Assembly: GCF_030908245.1 (NCBI RefSeq)
Contig: NZ_JAVFJJ010000003.1
Span: 310,001 to 374,000 of the forward strand
Source: Sinomonas sp. ASV322
GTDB lineage: Bacteria > Actinomycetota > Actinomycetes > Actinomycetales > Micrococcaceae
Length of the DNA: 64,000 nt
Reading direction: 5' to 3'
Notes under the pieces: model-generated
What the model was told of the DNA's origin: nothing
The model's database searches: none
What the model saw: only the letters and a program-made list of their open reading frames with translations
Made by a program: the position numbers and the translations under genes
Shown: piece by piece, positions 3,725 through 11,916 of the stretch
Numbering within the stretch: the stretch's first letter is position 1
How the letters are laid out: the number at the start of each line of letters is the position of its first letter

Positions 3725-4750
3725 ATGAACGCCGTGACGTACATCGCAGACTCCAGCCGCTACGGATCCATGCAGTACAACCGGGTCGGGCGCAGCGGAC
3801 TCAAACTCCCCGCCATCTCCCTCGGCCTCTGGCACAACTTCGGCGACGACAAGCGCCACGAGGAGCAGCGCGCCATCCTGCGCCGTGCCTTCGATCTCGG
3901 CGTGACCCATTTCGACCTCGCCAACAACTACGGACCGCCGCCCGGAAGCGCCGAATCGAACTTCGGGCGCCACCTGCGCGAGGACTTCCGGCCGTATCGC
4001 GATGAACTCGTGATCTCGACGAAGGCCGGCTACTTGATGTGGGACGGCCCCTACGGCGAATGGGGGTCACGGAAGTACTTGATCTCGAGTCTCGACCAGT
4101 CGCTCAAGCGCATGGGCCTCGAGTACGTGGACATCTTCTACAGCCACCGCCCCGACCCGGACACGCCGCTCGAGGAGACGATGGGGGCACTCGACTACGC
4201 CGTGCGCTCGGGGCGAGCCCTGTATGCGGGCATCTCCTCGTACACTCCCCAGCAGACGCTCGAAGCCGCGCACATCCTCGCGGATCTCGGAACGCCGCTG
4301 CTCATCCACCAGCCGCGCTATTCGATGGCCGACCGGTGGACCGAGCAGGGGAGCCCCAACCTGTACCAGGCGCTCGACGAGGTCGGGGCAGGATCGATCG
4401 TTTTCTCGCCACTCGCCCAGGGGCTCCTCACGAACCGTTACCTCCAAGGCGTGCCCGAAGATTCGCGCGCCGCGAAGGAACACTTCCTTCGGTCCTCGTC
4501 GCTCACGGAGGACAAGCTCGCGATGGTGAGGGCGCTCGACGGCGTCGCGACCGGCCGCGGCCAGACCCTCGCGCAGATGGCCATCTCGTGGGTCCTCCGC
4601 CCGCAGCCCTCGGGAGCCGCGCCCGTGACGTCGGCGCTCATCGGGGCGTCGTCGGTCGCGCAGCTCGAAGACTCGCTCGGCGCGCTCGCCGGACCCGAGT
4701 TCCTCGACGACGAGCTCGCCGAGATCGATCGGATCCTCGCGGGCCGCTGA
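3725..4750 (+). CDS. Aldo/keto reductase (YghZ/MgrA type)
   Basis: NADPH-dependent aldo/keto reductase of 341 residues, resembling the L-glyceraldehyde-3-phosphate reductase YghZ branch, which detoxifies reactive aldehydes in the cytoplasm. The AKR tetrad is recognisable: Asp in THFDLANNYG, Tyr in NNYGPPPGSAESNFG, Lys in VISTKAGYLMWDG and His in FYSHRPDPDTPL. The C-terminal nucleotide site includes ALIGASSVAQLEDSL. It is monocistronic and followed by a palindrome that may end transcription. The substrate is inferred from the family only. Confidence 0.93.
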   Translation: MNAVTYIADSSRYGSMQYNRVGRSGLKLPAISLGLWHNFGDDKRHEEQRAILRRAFDLGVTHFDLANNYGPPPGSAESNFGRHLREDFRPYRDELVISTKAGYLMWDGPYGEWGSRKYLISSLDQSLKRMGLEYVDIFYSHRPDPDTPLEETMGALDYAVRSGRALYAGISSYTPQQTLEAAHILADLGTPLLIHQPRYSMADRWTEQGSPNLYQALDEVGAGSIVFSPLAQGLLTNRYLQGVPEDSRAAKEHFLRSSSLTEDKLAMVRALDGVATGRGQTLAQMAISWVLRPQPSGAAPVTSALIGASSVAQLEDSLGALAGPEFLDDELAEIDRILAGR

Positions 4751-6438: not shown

Positions 6439-6482
6439 CGCGGTCACGTCCGCAGGGTGTGCACCCTGCGGACGTGACCGCG
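6439..6482. repeat. Perfect 21-base-arm palindrome
   Basis: Arms 6439-6459 and 6462-6482 are exact reverse complements with a two-base centre (TG). The left arm contains GGTCACGTCCGCAGGGTG. With such a small loop a full hairpin would open a few central pairs. It lies in the 372-base gap (6316-6687) after ino1 and may terminate it. It resembles the GGTCAC...GTGACC elements at 16275-16382 and 27061-27192. Confidence 0.75.
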
Positions 6483-6525
6483 CAGCGGAGGGAACCACTG
6501 AAAGGTGACGGCGCAACGGGAGTTC

Positions 6526-6609
6526 GGGATCCCAATTGGGGATCCCAAAGTCTTGACTGTGGTCCGGGTCACGGTCTATCGTTCATTTGGGATCCCGACT
6601 TGGGATCCC
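6526..6609. promoter_or_regulatory. Promoter bracketed by two pairs of GGGATCCC operators
   Basis: Four exact GGGATCCC palindromes lie at 6526-6533, 6539-6546, 6589-6596 and 6602-6609. Within each pair the spacing is 13 bases, and most copies sit in a TTGGGATCCCAA context. Between the pairs is a sigma70-like promoter: TTGACT at 6553-6558, an 18-base spacer and TATCGT at 6577-6582. The downstream gene is the MFS transporter. The natural candidate ligand is the GntR regulator encoded at 8147-8794, whose family binds short palindromes. Confidence 0.7.
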
Positions 6610-6687
6610 AAATCTCCGTTGCGCACCTCCCTTGGCCGGTCGGCCCTCAGCCCGTCAGGCCTTTCCCATTGTCGTGAAGGAGGACAC

Positions 6688-8022
6688 GTGTCCCTTCAAG
6701 AGGAAACCTCGCCGAAGCGCTCCGCGGGCACCGCGACCGCTGCCTCGGCCAAGCGCACAAACGTTCGCTGGAAGCTTTTCGTCCTGCTGCTCGTTCTCGT
6801 GTCGGTCAACTACGTTGACCGCGGCTCGATCTCGGTGGCCCTTCCCATCATCCAGAAGGAGTTCAATCTCACGCCCGAGCTCGTGGGCCTTCTGCTGTCC
6901 GCGTTCTTCTGGACCTATGCGCTCATGCAAGTGCCCGTCGGCTGGCTCATCGACCGCTTCGGCCCGCGCAAGGTCGTCACGGCGTCGTGTGTCGGCTGGG
7001 GCGCGGCGACCGCTGCGTCGGGCCTCGCCGGCGGGTTCGTGAGCATGTTCATCGCGCGGATGGGCATCGGCGTCACGGAGGCCGGCGTCATGCCCGCCGG
7101 CGGCAAGCTCAACGCCATCTGGATGCACTCGAAGGAGCGTGGCCGTGGCGCCACGATCCTCGACGCGGGCGCGCCGCTCGGCGCCGGCGTGGGCGGCATC
7201 CTGATCACGTGGCTCATCGCCTCGTTCGGCGGCTGGCGCATGGCGTTCATCATCGCCGGCATCGCGACCGCGGCCCTCGGCGCGTTCATCTGGTGGTACG
7301 TGCGGGACAACCCGCGCCAGCACCGCGCGGTCAACGACGCCGAGGCGGAGTACATCGAGGCGTCGCACGCGGCCGAGGATGAAGCGGCGAAGGCCGTTGG
7401 CGGCACGTCCCGGCGGGCGCTTCTGCCGTACCTCAGGTTCCGCTCGTTCTGGGCCATGTGCCTCGGCTGGCTCGGCTTCAACGGCGTGTTCTACGGCCTC
7501 CTCACGTGGGGCCCGCTGTATCTGTCCCAGGCCAAGCACTTCAACCTCAACTCGATCGGCTGGTCGACGTTCGTGATCTTCGGTGCGGGCTTCGTGGGCG
7601 AGATCCTCGGCGGCTCGCTCGCCGACCGGCTCCGCGCCAAGGGCTACGGCGCGAATGTGGTCATGCGTTCGCTGCTGGGCGCCTCGAGCGTCATCGTCGC
7701 GGCGGGCCTCGTCGGGGTGACCATCGTCGGGGACCCGATCACCGCCGTCGCCCTTCTCTCGGTGGTGCTCTTCTTCCTCCGCTGGGTCGGCCTCTTCTGG
7801 TCCGTCCCTGCGACGCTCGGCGGCCGCACGAACGCGGGCGTCCTGGGCGGCGCCATGAACCTGAGCGGCAACATCGCCGGCTTCGTGACGCCGATCGCCG
7901 TCGGCTTCATCGTCGGCGCGACCGGCGGGTACACGTGGGCGCTCCTGTACTTCGTCGGATCGGCGATCATCATGGGCGTCTCCGTCCTCGCCCTTGACTA
8001 CAGCAAGCGGCTCCCGGTGTGA
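6688..8022 (+). CDS. MFS transporter, sugar-acid/anion symporter type
   Basis: A 444-residue, 12-helix transporter of the anion:cation symporter branch, similar to D-galactonate and glucarate carriers. The motif VNYVDRGSISVALP near residue 37 and the loop motif GWLIDRFGPRKV are typical. It probably imports the organic acid or ureide degraded by the genes that follow. The GTG at 6688 has an excellent GAAGGAGG ribosome site and starts a hydrophilic N-terminus; longer frames run into the operator region. It is the first gene after the quadruple GGGATCCC promoter. Confidence 0.85.
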   Translation: MSLQEETSPKRSAGTATAASAKRTNVRWKLFVLLLVLVSVNYVDRGSISVALPIIQKEFNLTPELVGLLLSAFFWTYALMQVPVGWLIDRFGPRKVVTASCVGWGAATAASGLAGGFVSMFIARMGIGVTEAGVMPAGGKLNAIWMHSKERGRGATILDAGAPLGAGVGGILITWLIASFGGWRMAFIIAGIATAALGAFIWWYVRDNPRQHRAVNDAEAEYIEASHAAEDEAAKAVGGTSRRALLPYLRFRSFWAMCLGWLGFNGVFYGLLTWGPLYLSQAKHFNLNSIGWSTFVIFGAGFVGEILGGSLADRLRAKGYGANVVMRSLLGASSVIVAAGLVGVTIVGDPITAVALLSVVLFFLRWVGLFWSVPATLGGRTNAGVLGGAMNLSGNIAGFVTPIAVGFIVGATGGYTWALLYFVGSAIIMGVSVLALDYSKRLPV

Positions 8023-8146
8023 GCCCACGGCGGGCGGCGGCCGCCGCTGGCGTGGCGTCAGCCGGTGGCCGGCCGCCCGGATCGTGGTCGAATGGAACCA
8101 TCACCGCGCTGCGCGCGAACGCAGCCTGACCCGAGGAGGAGCCGGC

Positions 8147-8794
8147 ATGGCACAGCCTGTTGAGGAACCGCAGCGCGATCGACCTCTGCGCGAAGTCATC
8201 CGAGACACGCTGCGGACCCGGATCTTCGAAGGCCACTACGCGCCCGGCACGCGACTCATCGAACGCGATCTCGCGGCCGAGTTCAACGTCTCGCGGCTCC
8301 CTGTGCGCGAGGCCTTGAGGATGCTCGTGCAGGAGGGCATCTTGGCTGAGCGGGCTTCGCGCGGCTCGGTCGTCGCCTCGTTGAGCGAAAAGGACGTCGA
8401 GGATCTCTTCGACGTGCGGCTTTCGCTCGAGGTGCTCGCGTGTCGGCTTGCCGCGCAGCGGGCCACGCCCGAGGACATCGCGAAGCTCGGTGCTCTCCTT
8501 GACCGCGCCGCGGATGCCTTGGCCCGCGGCAGCATCAACGAAGCGCATCGTGCGAACAGCGAGTTCCATGACGAGGTCACGCGGATCGCGGACAACGGCT
8601 TCCTCCGTTCGGCCCTCGAGCCCCTCCAGGGCCGCATGCACTGGCTGTTCCGCCACGTCACGGACCTGCCCGAGCTCGTGCAGGAGCATCGCGATCTCCT
8701 CGCGGCGATCGCGAGCGGCGACCCGGAGCGAGCCGCAGCGCAGTCGGCTCATCACATTGGCAAGTACCGGGAGCAGTACCCGGAGACGACCTGA
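8147..8794 (+). CDS. GntR-family regulator (FCD/FadR type)
   Basis: A 215-residue transcription factor with an N-terminal winged helix (residues about 12-75, FNVSRLPVREALRMLVQEGIL as recognition region) and a C-terminal all-helical FCD ligand domain. FCD metal-ligand residues are plausible in SEFHDEVTRIADNGFL and SAHHIGKY. It lies between the transporter and the enzymes of the catabolic cluster and probably binds the GGGATCCC pairs at 6526-6609, responding to a small carboxylate. The ATG has GAGGAGG seven bases upstream. Confidence 0.92.
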   Translation: MAQPVEEPQRDRPLREVIRDTLRTRIFEGHYAPGTRLIERDLAAEFNVSRLPVREALRMLVQEGILAERASRGSVVASLSEKDVEDLFDVRLSLEVLACRLAAQRATPEDIAKLGALLDRAADALARGSINEAHRANSEFHDEVTRIADNGFLRSALEPLQGRMHWLFRHVTDLPELVQEHRDLLAAIASGDPERAAAQSAHHIGKYREQYPETT

Positions 8795-8864
8795 CATCGC
8801 TCAGCCGACCCGACACTACGGGAGGCGGCCTGCCGCCCCTACATCTTCACGCAAGGAACCACGC

Positions 8865-9674
8865 ATGAGACTTCTCGTCGTCAACCCCAACATCAGCGAA
8901 GAGGTGACCGACCTCATCCGCGCCGAAGCGGAGCGGTCGGCCGGCCCTTCGACCGAGCTGACGGTGTGCACCGCGCCCAGGGGCGTCGAATACATCGAGA
9001 CCCGCTTCGAATCACTTCTTGCGGCGACGGCCGTGGCGGAGGTCATCGCCGAGCACTGCGGCGAGGTCAGCGGAATCGACGGCGTCGTCGTCGCCGCGTT
9101 CGGCGACCCGGGCATGCCGGCGCTCAAGGAACTCGTCGACGTCCCGGTCATCGGGATCACCGAGGCGGCGCTGTGCGCGGCCGCGCTCCAGGGGCATCGC
9201 TTCTCGATCATCGCGATCTCGGATCGCATCACGGCGTGGTACCGCGATTGCGTCGAGCGCTTCGGCTTCGGGAGCAGGCTTGCGTCGATCCGATCGATCA
9301 AGGAGGCGCTTCGGGGCATCGGGAGCGTCCAGGACGACTTCCGCCCGACCCTCGTCGAGCTCGCGCGACTCGCCGTCGCGGAGGACGGAGCCGACGTCGT
9401 CATCCTCGCCGGGGCGCCCCTTGCGGGCCTTGCGCGCGACGTCGCGTCGGAGATCCCGGTCCCGGTCGTCGACGGGATCGGCGCGGGCGTGCGCCTTGCC
9501 GAGGCTGTCGTGGGGCTCCGCTCGGGTGCGCATCGCGCGGGCTCGTTCGCGGCGCCGCCGCCCAAGCGGCGCGCTGGCCTGAGCCCCGCACTCGACGCCG
9601 CGCTCGACGCCGCCCAGCTCGCCGTGCAGGGGCAGCCGCCCGTCGCGGCCCCGTCGGCGGCGGGGAGCGTCTGA
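8865..9674 (+). CDS. Asp/Glu/hydantoin racemase-fold protein lacking both catalytic Cys
   Basis: A 269-residue protein of the Asp/Glu/hydantoin racemase superfamily: MRLLVVNPNISEEVTDLI at the N-terminus, then FGDPGMPALKELVDVPVIGI. In characterised hydantoin racemases the two acid/base cysteines fall in motifs like CFSDPG and LGCAG. Here the matching segments read VVAAFGDPG (Ala78) and ILAGAPLAG (about Gly183), so both cysteines appear absent. It may act as something other than a two-base racemase, or use different residues. The start has a GGAA-type ribosome site. The stop overlaps the next gene's ATG. Confidence 0.75.
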   Translation: MRLLVVNPNISEEVTDLIRAEAERSAGPSTELTVCTAPRGVEYIETRFESLLAATAVAEVIAEHCGEVSGIDGVVVAAFGDPGMPALKELVDVPVIGITEAALCAAALQGHRFSIIAISDRITAWYRDCVERFGFGSRLASIRSIKEALRGIGSVQDDFRPTLVELARLAVAEDGADVVILAGAPLAGLARDVASEIPVPVVDGIGAGVRLAEAVVGLRSGAHRAGSFAAPPPKRRAGLSPALDAALDAAQLAVQGQPPVAAPSAAGSV

Positions 9675-11182
9675 TGGCCGATCTCGTCATTTCCAACGGC
9701 CTCGTCGTCAACTCGTGGGGCACCCAGGCCGCGCACGTCGTCGTCGACGGGGGCCGCATCGCGGCCGTCCTCGACGCCGCCGCCCCGGTTCCCGCTGCCG
9801 AGCGCGTCGTTGATGCGGCCGGCCGCGCCGTCATCCCGGGCGGCGTCGACGGCCACTGCCACGTGGCTCAGACGACGGGCCGGTTCCGCACGCTCGACGA
9901 CTTTGCCGTCACCTCGACGGCCGCCCTCTGGGGCGGCACGACGACGATCCTCGACTTCGGCATTCCGCGCGACGAGTCGGAGACCCCGCTCGAGGCCGCG
10001 AAGAACAAGCTCGCCTTGGCCCAGGCGGCGCGGTGCGACGTCGCGCTCCACGGTTCGGTCGTGCGCTGGGACGAGACGGTGCCTGCCCAGCTCGAGGAGC
10101 TCGCGGCGCTCGGAATCCGGTCCGTCAAGATGTACATGACGAACCGGGGCACGACGATCGCGGACGACGACACCGTGCTCAAGGTCATGCGCGAGATGGT
10201 CCGACTCGATGGGCTCACGTACATCCACGCCGAGCACGACGCGATGATCGTCGACTGCACCCAGGCGCACGCCGACGCCGGCACGATCGGGATCGGCCAC
10301 CTGCACGAGACCCGCCCCGAGCTCGCGGAGGAGGCCTCCGTGCGCGAGGTCATCGCGATGGCCGAGTACACGGGCGCGCCGGTCTACTTCGTCCACCAGT
10401 CCACGCCGGGCGCCGTCGACCTTGTCTCGGAGGCCCGCGCGCGCGGCCTCGACATCCTCTCCGAGACCTGCCCGCACTACCTCGTGCTCGACGACGGCGT
10501 GTACTCGTCGCGCTTCCCCGAGTGGTTCGCGTGCTGCCCGCCCATGCGCTCGCCCGAGGCGGTCGCCGCGCTCCGCGGGCGCTTCGCGGGCGGCTCGATC
10601 CACACCGTTTCGAGCGATCACTCGTGCTACGACCTGACGCAGAAGCGAGAGCGCACCGACGACGTGCGGCAGATGCCGCACGGCCTGCCGGGCGTCGAGA
10701 CCCGCATGGCCGTCGCGTTCACGGCGCTGGCCGAACGACTGGGAAGCGCGGACTTGGCGGCCGACGACGCGGGCCTCCTCGAGCGCTTCGTCGACGTCTT
10801 CTCGGCCGCGCCCGCGAGGATCAACGCCCTCCCGGGCAAGGGAGCGATCGCTCCCGGCTGCGACGCCGACCTCGTGGTCTTCGACCCTGCCGAGGCCCGA
10901 ACGGTCGACGGCGGGGCCCTCCACATGGGCACCGACTTCTCACCCTTCGACGGGCGTGAGCTGCGCGGCTGGCCCCAAGTCGTCGTCGCTGGCGGCCGCG
11001 TGGTCCTCGACGAGGACGGCTTCCACGACCCGGGGCCTGTGGGGCGCTTCGTGCCGCGGCGCGGCTACCGGGAGGCCAACGCAGCGGCGGCATCCGTCGC
11101 GGGGCTCGCCGGGGACGGACGGACGGCGGCGCTGGGCGAGTTCGCCGTCGTCGTCGGTTCTCGCGCGGGGGAGGGGGAGTGA
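9674..11182 (+). CDS. Hydantoinase/dihydropyrimidinase-family amidohydrolase
   Basis: A 502-residue cyclic amidohydrolase of the D-hydantoinase/dihydropyrimidinase/allantoinase group, which opens cyclic ureides or imides in the cytoplasm using two metals. The metal-site residues are all present: H61 and H63 in GVDGHCHV, the carbamylated-Lys position K152 in SVKMYMT, H185 in YIHAEHD, H241 in FVHQST and D315 in SSDHS. It is coupled by four-base overlaps to the racemase-fold genes on both sides. No carbamoylase gene is nearby, so the ring-opened product must be handled otherwise. The true substrate is unknown. Confidence 0.85.
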   Translation: MADLVISNGLVVNSWGTQAAHVVVDGGRIAAVLDAAAPVPAAERVVDAAGRAVIPGGVDGHCHVAQTTGRFRTLDDFAVTSTAALWGGTTTILDFGIPRDESETPLEAAKNKLALAQAARCDVALHGSVVRWDETVPAQLEELAALGIRSVKMYMTNRGTTIADDDTVLKVMREMVRLDGLTYIHAEHDAMIVDCTQAHADAGTIGIGHLHETRPELAEEASVREVIAMAEYTGAPVYFVHQSTPGAVDLVSEARARGLDILSETCPHYLVLDDGVYSSRFPEWFACCPPMRSPEAVAALRGRFAGGSIHTVSSDHSCYDLTQKRERTDDVRQMPHGLPGVETRMAVAFTALAERLGSADLAADDAGLLERFVDVFSAAPARINALPGKGAIAPGCDADLVVFDPAEARTVDGGALHMGTDFSPFDGRELRGWPQVVVAGGRVVLDEDGFHDPGPVGRFVPRRGYREANAAAASVAGLAGDGRTAALGEFAVVVGSRAGEGE

Positions 11183-11916
11183 CGATGCTGCGCACGAAGC
11201 CCGCCCGCCGGACGCGCATCGGCATGATTGTGCCGTCGTCGAACACGTGTCTCGAGCCCATGAGCTATCGCATTCTCGGCGACAGGGACGATGTGACGAT
11301 CCATTCGACGCGCATCCCCGTGACCCGGATCGCGCTCGACTCGGGCTCGGACCAGCAGTTCGACGTCGAGGGCATGCGCCGCGCCGCGGAGCTTCTTGCG
11401 ACGGCGGACGTCGACGTCATCGCGTGGAACGGGACGTCGGGCTCGTGGCTCGGGCCCGAACACGACCGCGAGATCGTCGCCGAGATCACGGCGGCCACGG
11501 GTGTCCCGGCGACGACCTCGACCCTCGCGTACCTGGACGCGTTCCGCGAGTTCGGCACGCGGTCGATCGGTCTCGTGACCCCGTACACGGCGGACGTCAA
11601 TCTCGAGGTCGCGGTTCGCTTCGCGGCGGAGGGGATCCGCGTGGCGGGCCATCGCGCGCTCGGGCTCAGCGACAACGAGTCGTTCGGGCGCGTCGCCCCG
11701 GCGGAACTCGTCCCCGGGTCCCTCGAGCTTGCGGCGGAACATCCGGACGCGCTCGTCTACCTGTGCACGAACCTTTACGGCGCTCCGGTCGTGGCCCGCG
11801 TCGAGGAGGAGACCGGGGTGGCTGCGCTCGACTCGGTGGCCGTCACGCTGTGGCGCTGCCTCCAGCTCGCGGGCGCCCCGCTGCTCGACCCCCGCTGGGG
11901 AAAGCTGCTCGCGTAG
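11179..11916 (+). CDS. Maleate isomerase/arylmalonate decarboxylase-like protein
   Basis: A 245-residue racemase-fold protein with the signature PSSNTCLEP of the maleate cis-trans isomerase/arylmalonate decarboxylase branch. The first catalytic Cys of maleate isomerases (in CTSGS) is replaced: the segment reads IAWNGTSGSW with Gly85. The second Cys is kept (YLCTNL, Cys196). A Gly-Thr-Ser plus single Cys pattern is that of arylmalonate decarboxylase, so a decarboxylase or isomerase role is possible. The GTG start overlaps the amidohydrolase stop; an ATG two codons further is the alternative. Confidence 0.75.
   Translation: MTMLRTKPARRTRIGMIVPSSNTCLEPMSYRILGDRDDVTIHSTRIPVTRIALDSGSDQQFDVEGMRRAAELLATADVDVIAWNGTSGSWLGPEHDREIVAEITAATGVPATTSTLAYLDAFREFGTRSIGLVTPYTADVNLEVAVRFAAEGIRVAGHRALGLSDNESFGRVAPAELVPGSLELAAEHPDALVYLCTNLYGAPVVARVEEETGVAALDSVAVTLWRCLQLAGAPLLDPRWGKLLA

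Follow-up and report, generated by a model that had tools for sequence, protein, structure and literature searches.

Known proteins of the Asp/Glu racemase fold include two-cysteine racemases, maleate isomerase, and the single-cysteine arylmalonate decarboxylase (AMDase), and the hyu clusters of Arthrobacter combine a racemase-fold protein with a hydantoinase and a transporter. Here, we analyze a window of 64,000 nucleotides from Sinomonas sp. ASV322 (contig NZ_JAVFJJ010000003.1, positions 310,001 to 374,000 of the forward strand), in which a five-gene cassette encodes two proteins of this fold, one without either catalytic cysteine (RAC1) and one with a single site cysteine (RAC2), together with a hydantoinase-family metal hydrolase (HYD). 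The parts belong to known families, and their combination is a new variant. No description of such a cluster was recognized in the open-access literature searched, a search that had most of the subscription literature outside its scope, and we regard this as weak evidence of novelty.

As criteria for AMDase, PMC4996985 names a hydrophobic pocket with V156 and M159, to which L40, V43, and Y48 also belong, and the oxyanion residue G189. The same source judges annotated AMDases that lack the hydrophobic pocket unlikely to act on arylmalonates, and reports a test of an Acidianus hospitalis protein that confirmed this. The prototype AMDases considered there appeared to be limited to the Alpha-, Beta-, and Gammaproteobacteria, with MR/MLE enzymes and TTT, TRAP, and ABC transporters encoded by the flanking genes (PMC4996985). 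For the racemases, PMC12661438 gives Asn12, Thr118, and Thr119 as the substrate contacts of the Klebsiella pneumoniae allantoin racemase (KpAllR). It also describes equivalent cysteine mutants of OpaE, a fungal member of the family, of which C90S had 4.8% activity and C199S and the double mutant at most 0.3%.

The operators and the five plus-strand genes of the Sinomonas cassette span positions 6524 to 11916 of the window, within a genome of 4.34 Mb that is 97.9% complete. The features are as follows.

6524..6548, no strand assigned: operator pair 1, with boxes at 6524-6535 (TCGGGATCCCAA) and 6537-6548 (TGGGGATCCCAA), upstream of the -35 element
6553..6582, plus strand: predicted promoter TTGACT-18-TATCGT between the operator pairs (1 found versus 0.0 in shuffles)
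6587..6611, no strand assigned: operator pair 2, the conserved pair, with boxes at 6587-6598 (TTGGGATCCCGA) and 6600-6611 (TTGGGATCCCAA), just downstream of the -10 element
6688..8022, plus strand: MFS transporter, start GTG 6688; best NCBIfam model TIGR00893 at 264 bits, below its cut-off of 395
8147..8794, plus strand: FCD-domain GntR regulator (PF07729, PF00392), presumed repressor
8865..9674, plus strand: RAC1, racemase-fold protein (Asp/Glu/hydantoin type) with Ala78 and Gly183 in place of the catalytic cysteines
9674..11182, plus strand: HYD, hydantoinase/dihydropyrimidinase-family metal hydrolase, ligands H61, H63, K152, H185, H241, and D315
11179..11916, plus strand: RAC2, protein of the AMDase/maleate-isomerase family; Gly83-Thr84-Ser85 at site 1, Cys194 as its only site cysteine; start GTG 11179 or ATG 11185

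Gene calls and family models bear out the five-gene set (MFS, FCD/GntR, RAC1, HYD, and RAC2) that an earlier note on this DNA had proposed. That note began the cluster at 6504, a start we do not retain: the open reading frame (ORF) from 6504 passes through the operators, and the likelier start of the MFS gene is GTG 6688, which is preceded by GAAGGAGG. It also described the cluster as tightly overlapping, which is true of the three enzyme genes; gaps of 124 bp and 70 bp separate the MFS gene from the FCD gene and the FCD gene from RAC1, respectively.

To describe the distribution of the cassette, we scanned genomes by RAC1 alignment, with one genome per species, and kept the best 80 of 264 loci. 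These belong to Sinomonas, Arthrobacter and close genera, Microbacterium, Nocardia, and Amycolatopsis, and 74 of the 80 have the five genes in the same order. The other six are without the MFS gene (L073, L078, L079, and L103) and/or RAC2 (L079, L124, and L145), the last three being short loci of 9.1, 4.1, and 4.5 kb. The regulator gene comes last in four loci of one genus (L057 to L060). A search of a plasmid collection (E up to 1e-30, with 8 to 12 kb read on each side) returned 20 records with RAC1, several of them near-copies, from Arthrobacter and from Alpha-, Beta-, and Gammaproteobacteria. An RAC2-type gene is present in 19 of these 20 regions and a hydantoinase gene in 18, and the transporters beside RAC1 vary (MFS, NMT1-type ABC, and TRAP). 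When 396 genomes drawn evenly from the phylum were searched (E up to 1e-40), RAC1 turned up only in the window's own genome, indicating that RAC1 is not general in the Actinomycetota. Of the other 19 places found in this draw, 18 encode racemases that have Cys at site 2, and the last is a further paralogue from the window's own genome without either cysteine.

RAC1 has the racemase fold (PF01177, 156.9 bits against a cut-off of 31), and its AlphaFold model lies nearest to the allantoin racemases (5lg5; Z 31.2, root mean square deviation [rmsd] 1.9, 230 aligned residues). The mean predicted local distance difference test scores of the models are 82 for RAC1 and 85 for RAC2. In the alignment with KpAllR (3qvj), RAC1 has Ala78 for Cys79 and Gly183 for Cys184, just as the earlier note had read, and both residues are fixed in 80/80 genome loci and 20/20 plasmid records. 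Counted along the same alignment, Asn9 keeps the contact residue Asn12 of KpAllR, and Thr118/Thr119 become Ala117/Ile118. In the alignment and structure prediction that had been proposed as a check, the catalytic positions of RAC1 hold no cysteine, and the allantoin-racemase fold is kept. Because both cysteines are absent, two-cysteine racemization is impossible for RAC1. Together with the two replaced contact threonines, this supports the view of a dedicated cluster of catabolic type that does not resemble ordinary hydantoin racemization.

The losses set RAC1 apart from its relatives. We compared 21 RAC1 rows with 21 others, namely, 18 RAC1-profile matches, two solved allantoin racemases, and a gene from L131; a nineteenth profile match (L184), also without both cysteines, was left out of this residue comparison. 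Position 183 is Gly in 21/21 RAC1 rows versus Cys in 21/21 comparison rows. Position 78 is Ala in 21/21 RAC1 rows, and the comparison rows have Cys in 10 and Gly in 11. Residues specific to the RAC1 clade include Tyr43, Arg47, and Trp125 (21/21) and Tyr126 (20/21). In the tree, the RAC1 rows make up one side of a branch with support of 93/94, with L184 beside the clade on a very long branch and of unsure placement. The RAC1 loops AAFGDP and GAPLxGLA do not vary among 15 sequences aligned from the Actinomycetota and Pseudomonadota, even where identity falls to 40%. Across eight Sinomonas comparisons, the ratio of nonsynonymous to synonymous substitution rates (dN/dS) is 0.09 to 0.19 for RAC1, 0.13 to 0.19 for HYD, and 0.08 to 0.15 for RAC2, and the values for RAC1 argue against decay. 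RAC1 is a distinct clade under purifying selection in which the cysteine losses are fixed.

Two side observations concern other members of this family. The window's own genome (G000) encodes a hydantoin-racemase paralogue without either cysteine at C13:34459-35085 (L184, L204), with the motifs SAFGDPG and GGGPLAV; inspection of its neighbors by eye gave no result. Among the 21 comparison rows, 11, all of allantoin-racemase type, combine Cys at site 2 with a Gly at site 1 that has Glu-His shortly after it (GYGEHG or GFGEHG). These rows are 5lfd, L167, L169, L172, L178 to L183, and the L131 gene at 3941-4702.

For RAC2, the earlier note had claimed Gly-Thr-Ser at the first site and only the second cysteine, and the alignment with AMDase gives the same picture. 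Gly83-Thr84-Ser85 correspond to Gly74-Thr75-Ser76, Cys194 to Cys188, and Tyr134 to Tyr126; the printed alignment covers AMDase from residue 52 onward, and AMDase P15 is Ser18 in RAC2 by motif. Gly83, Thr84, and Cys194 are present in all 77 genome loci that have RAC2 and in 19/19 plasmid records. Ser85 is replaced by Ala in one of those RAC2 proteins and in a few further loci (5/33 rows). RAC2 matches the family PF17645 at 91.5 bits (cut-off 25.9). Its AlphaFold model comes closest to maleate isomerase (4fq5; Z 29.3, rmsd 1.9, 231 aligned) and, in a tie with it, to an AMDase mutant (3ixl; Z 28.6, rmsd 2.1, 227 aligned), and plain Foldseek ranks AMDase first. A separate RAC2-like paralogue (L063 to L067; C3:65824-66522 in the window's own genome) lacks a cysteine at both sites, with Gly-Thr-Ser at the first and Gly-Thr-Asn at the second, and in 5/5 loci it is flanked on both sides by a polysaccharide-deacetylase-family gene or homologue.

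The third enzyme, HYD, aligns all six of its metal ligands (H61, H63, K152, H185, H241, and D315) with those of its best PDB match, 1nfg, at positions that we take to be the HxH, Lys, His, His, and Asp of the family. With these ligands kept, the ring-opening step suggested by the earlier note is well supported. Position 336 is His in HYD and two orthologues and Asn in seven other compared sequences. HYD scores below the cut-offs of TIGR02033 (339.9 versus 393.25 bits) and NF009941 (305.3 versus 647 bits), and is under the cut-off for each of the best 25 of 55 NCBIfam models. The three proteobacterial HydA proteins tested pass PRK13404 (690 to 789 bits, cut-off 647), which the window's HYD fails at 305 bits, and identity between HYD and six proteobacterial HydA proteins encoded beside RAC1 is only 28 to 32%. 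Given this distance, the hydantoinases that accompany RAC1 seem to be separate recruitments, and the association of one RAC1 clade with two distant hydantoinases speaks for ring opening as a step of the pathway. One HYD match, in Arthrobacter sp. Hiyo4 (L133), is split over two reading-frame pieces, by either a frameshift or a sequencing error.

The cluster itself contains no carbamoylase, as the earlier note had stated, and the best TIGR01879 match genome-wide reaches 41 bits (cut-off 204), nitrilase-type D-carbamoylases not having been searched. Among 14 control genomes, 11 had a TIGR01879 match and 6 were over the cut-off. The lack of a TIGR01879 carbamoylase over the cut-off is consistent with a pathway whose end product is not an N-carbamoyl amino acid.

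Upstream of the genes, four TTGGGATCCCAA-type boxes begin at 6524, 6537, 6587, and 6600, with 13-bp spacing inside each pair. Against these boxes, sites with up to three mismatches are not above chance within the window (12 found, 12.8 expected); in their favor, the whole genome has only seven sites within one mismatch of TTGGGATCCCAA, four of which are at this operon. Of the remaining three, one is on contig 32 and two precede a second MFS gene on contig 28 (TIGR00893, 254 bits, below the cut-off). The contig 28 boxes, at 351577 and 351600 (L202 8578-8612), lie between this minus-strand gene and a divergent ORF, and the second transporter may belong to the same regulon. Of the 80 loci, 76 have an MFS match, and operators were counted in these. 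GGGATCCC is found upstream in 74 of them, and the two loci without it have just 174 and 142 bases of upstream sequence. Exact copies of GGGATCCC per upstream region number zero in 2 loci, one in 1, two in 66, three in 3, and four in 4, and the 13-bp box spacing occurs 73 times across the 76 regions. In 70/76 related loci, a GGGATCCC box lies 35 to 37 bp past TTGAC (36 bp in the window), and boxes flank TTGAC on both sides in 11/76. A conserved box just past the -10 element suits a repressor. The quadruple operator described earlier is accurate for the window, with its four boxes, and is uncommon among the relatives, where four exact copies occur in only 4/76 loci and one pair is usual.

Building on the gene set, residue changes, conservation, operator, and clade described above, we tentatively read the cassette as a substrate-inducible uptake-and-degradation operon that combines ring opening, a single-cysteine RAC2 step, and a cysteine-free RAC1 step. 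We infer the order of these steps, their chemistry, the substrate class, and the regulation as follows. The MFS carrier would import an organic anion. The FCD regulator would occupy the GGGATCCC box pairs at the promoter and would be released on binding the substrate or an intermediate. HYD, as its family and metal ligands suggest, would open a cyclic ureide or cyclic imide ring. RAC2 would then carry out enediolate chemistry at the carbon beside a carboxylate, with its one cysteine as the proton donor, most likely as a cofactor-free decarboxylation or a single-face protonation. RAC1 would take a related ligand through another step, most likely cysteine-free lyase or decarboxylation chemistry, and would use the clade-specific Tyr43, Arg47, Trp125, and Tyr126. 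A more far-reaching and more speculative proposal is that RAC1, through these four residues, founds a cysteine-free reaction class and that RAC1, RAC2, and a recruited hydrolase make up a third cyclic-ureide/imide module, spread between phyla on plasmids and distinct from the hydantoin and allantoin routes.

Several findings weigh against the reading as a ring-opening and degradation operon, and we take them up here with the alternatives they bear on. The first concern RAC2. The AMDase residues V156, M159, and G189 are replaced in RAC2 by Asn164, Phe167, and Thr195, and RAC2 reaches 81.3 bits against the AMDase equivalog model NF052327, which has a cut-off of 225; these tested residues and the cut-off rule out RAC2 as a member of AMDase. 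With several AMDase criteria failed, AMDase-type release of a carboxylate via a hydrophobic pocket is doubtful. Moreover, the same Gly (site 1) and Cys (site 2) are seen in the alignment of Pseudomonas fluorescens AllR (PfAllR; 5lfd), an allantoin racemase of solved structure, so that such a layout alone does not mean a decarboxylase. Of the AMDase-type decarboxylation raised by the earlier note, the Gly/Cys layout and the shared Thr, Ser, and Tyr stand in favor; the model score, the three replaced residues, and the same layout in 5lfd count against it. From its sequence, RAC2 appears to have the cysteine layout of AMDase without the AMDase pocket, and decarboxylation by RAC2 is possible.

Alternatively, RAC2 could be a one-cysteine isomerase or racemase rather than a decarboxylase, and the cluster would then invert or isomerize a ring-derived acid. 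We consider this somewhat unlikely. The best NCBIfam score of RAC2 is that of EutA, at 120.7 bits (below the cut-off of 318), higher than that of the AMDase model, and EutA is predicted to invert a ring hydroxyl according to PMC5924519; PfAllR also shares the Gly/Cys arrangement of RAC2. The sequences compared, one EutA and two of maleate-isomerase type, nevertheless have Cys at both sites where RAC2 has Gly83 at site 1 in 77/77 genome loci and 19/19 plasmid records, and the PfAllR-type rows carry Glu-His after site 1 (GEHG), which RAC2 does not. Membership of RAC2 in EutA/maleate isomerase is ruled out by the missing site-1 cysteine.

RAC1 may likewise be noncatalytic, that is, a pseudoenzyme that binds a ligand or serves as a partner protein of HYD or RAC2 and has no chemistry of its own. 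The replacement of both catalytic positions and of two substrate-binding threonines within a retained allantoin-racemase fold is what such a protein might look like. The invariance of the loops at both catalytic sites and a dN/dS as low as that of HYD fit catalysis, without proving it, and we regard the pseudoenzyme as unlikely.

A further point against ring opening by HYD in every case comes from two Rhizobium plasmid records with an amidase but no hydantoinase beside RAC1, which indicate that HYD is not always needed. These are among six alphaproteobacterial records, five of which have an amidase-family gene near RAC1. They are consistent with a cyclic-imide route in which imide opening by HYD gives a half-amide, cleavage of this by a host amidase gives a maleate- or malonate-like dicarboxylate, and the dicarboxylate is the substrate of RAC2, and the tie of the RAC2 fold between maleate isomerase and AMDase is consistent with it as well. 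However, the actinobacterial cassette has no amidase and RAC2 is without the first maleate-isomerase cysteine, and we hold this route to be quite unlikely.

The surroundings of the cassette offer no firmer guide. Flanking genes diverge (urate genes, FAH-family hydrolases, and HIB-type or NAD-epimerase-type dehydrogenases), and the flanking FAH, amidase, class V aminotransferase, SDR, NAD-dependent epimerase, HIB-type dehydrogenase, RraA, and DUF3830 genes did not converge on one substrate. FAH-family hydrolases are encoded near the cassette in 8 of 111 loci, some genomes counting twice (L046, L058 to L060, L083, L086, L131, and L148), as well as on two Klebsiella plasmids with RAC1 and beside RAC2 on an S. 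meliloti plasmid (L151, L161, and L188), and such a hydrolase is a possible downstream step. The HIB-type and NAD-epimerase-type dehydrogenases are on the Klebsiella plasmids. Taken together, the FAH, amidase, and urate neighbors fit, weakly, a ring-derived acid without naming the substrate.

The urate genes could also place the cassette on a branch off purine ureide (urate/allantoin) degradation, in which HYD would catalyze an allantoinase-like reaction. Immediately upstream of the cassette, 11/80 loci carry genes for OHCU decarboxylase and HIUase (L093, L102, L105, L108, L111, L125, L132, L133, L137, L140, and L148). OHCU decarboxylase is nonetheless encoded in 30/30 genomes with the cassette and in 22/30 taken to be free of it, and in the window's genome it is on another contig. 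Being common with or without the cassette, it downgrades the purine link, and the arrangement upstream may represent one local insertion. The window's genome also already encodes a PfAllR-type racemase (C10:67553). A search for allantoicase found no match in any genome, and the control genomes were equally silent, so that this absence carries no weight. We judge a purine side branch improbable. Least probable by our estimate is ordinary hydantoin utilization by racemase, hydantoinase, and a carbamoylase located elsewhere in the genome: the gene families resemble a hyu cluster, but we set this pathway aside on the absent RAC1 cysteines and on the lack of a TIGR01879 carbamoylase over the cut-off in the genome (nitrilase-type enzymes not searched), and HYD also stays below the cut-offs of its best NCBIfam models.

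In the window, the cassette is bordered upstream by a gene for a myo-inositol-1-phosphate synthase and downstream by one for a BBE-type FAD oxidoreductase. A perfect inverted repeat of 21 bases, with 2 bases between its arms, occupies 6439-6482 just 5' of the operators and is perhaps the transcript end of the inositol-phosphate synthase gene.

As an example of the Asp/Glu racemase fold without its usual acid/base pair, the RAC1 clade would be a natural test of what this fold does. Little is known about the metabolic function of AMDase, as stated in PMC4996985, and the cluster may give a physiological setting for AMDase-like chemistry. It is also a possible source of new cofactor-free biocatalysts, and the operator and regulator provide a direct handle on the inducer.

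Among known systems, the allantoin racemases of Klebsiella pneumoniae (3qvj/3qvk) and Pseudomonas fluorescens (5lfd/5lg5) share the fold of RAC1, with 35 to 37% identity in structural alignments. RAC1 retains the NPN motif as well as the Klebsiella enzyme's FGDPG loop and differs from that enzyme in the exchange of Cys79/Cys184 for Ala/Gly and of Thr118/Thr119 for Ala/Ile, as well as in the four clade-specific residues. By alignment, PfAllR has only the second Cys, and a strict cysteine pair is thus not universal among the racemases themselves. RAC2 has in common with the Bordetella bronchiseptica AMDase (PF17645) the Gly-Thr-Ser, the site-2 Cys, the Tyr, and the fold, and departs from it in Asn/Phe/Thr for V156/M159/G189 and in a score below the equivalog cut-off. 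With maleate isomerase RAC2 shares the fold and with EutA its best NCBIfam score, and it differs from both by the absent site-1 Cys. HYD shares the six metal ligands of the D-hydantoinases/dihydropyrimidinases and differs from them by His336 in place of Asn. Compared with the hyu clusters of Arthrobacter, the cassette is without a carbamoylase, its RAC1 is free of the catalytic cysteines, and it has in addition RAC2, an MFS carrier, and an FCD regulator.

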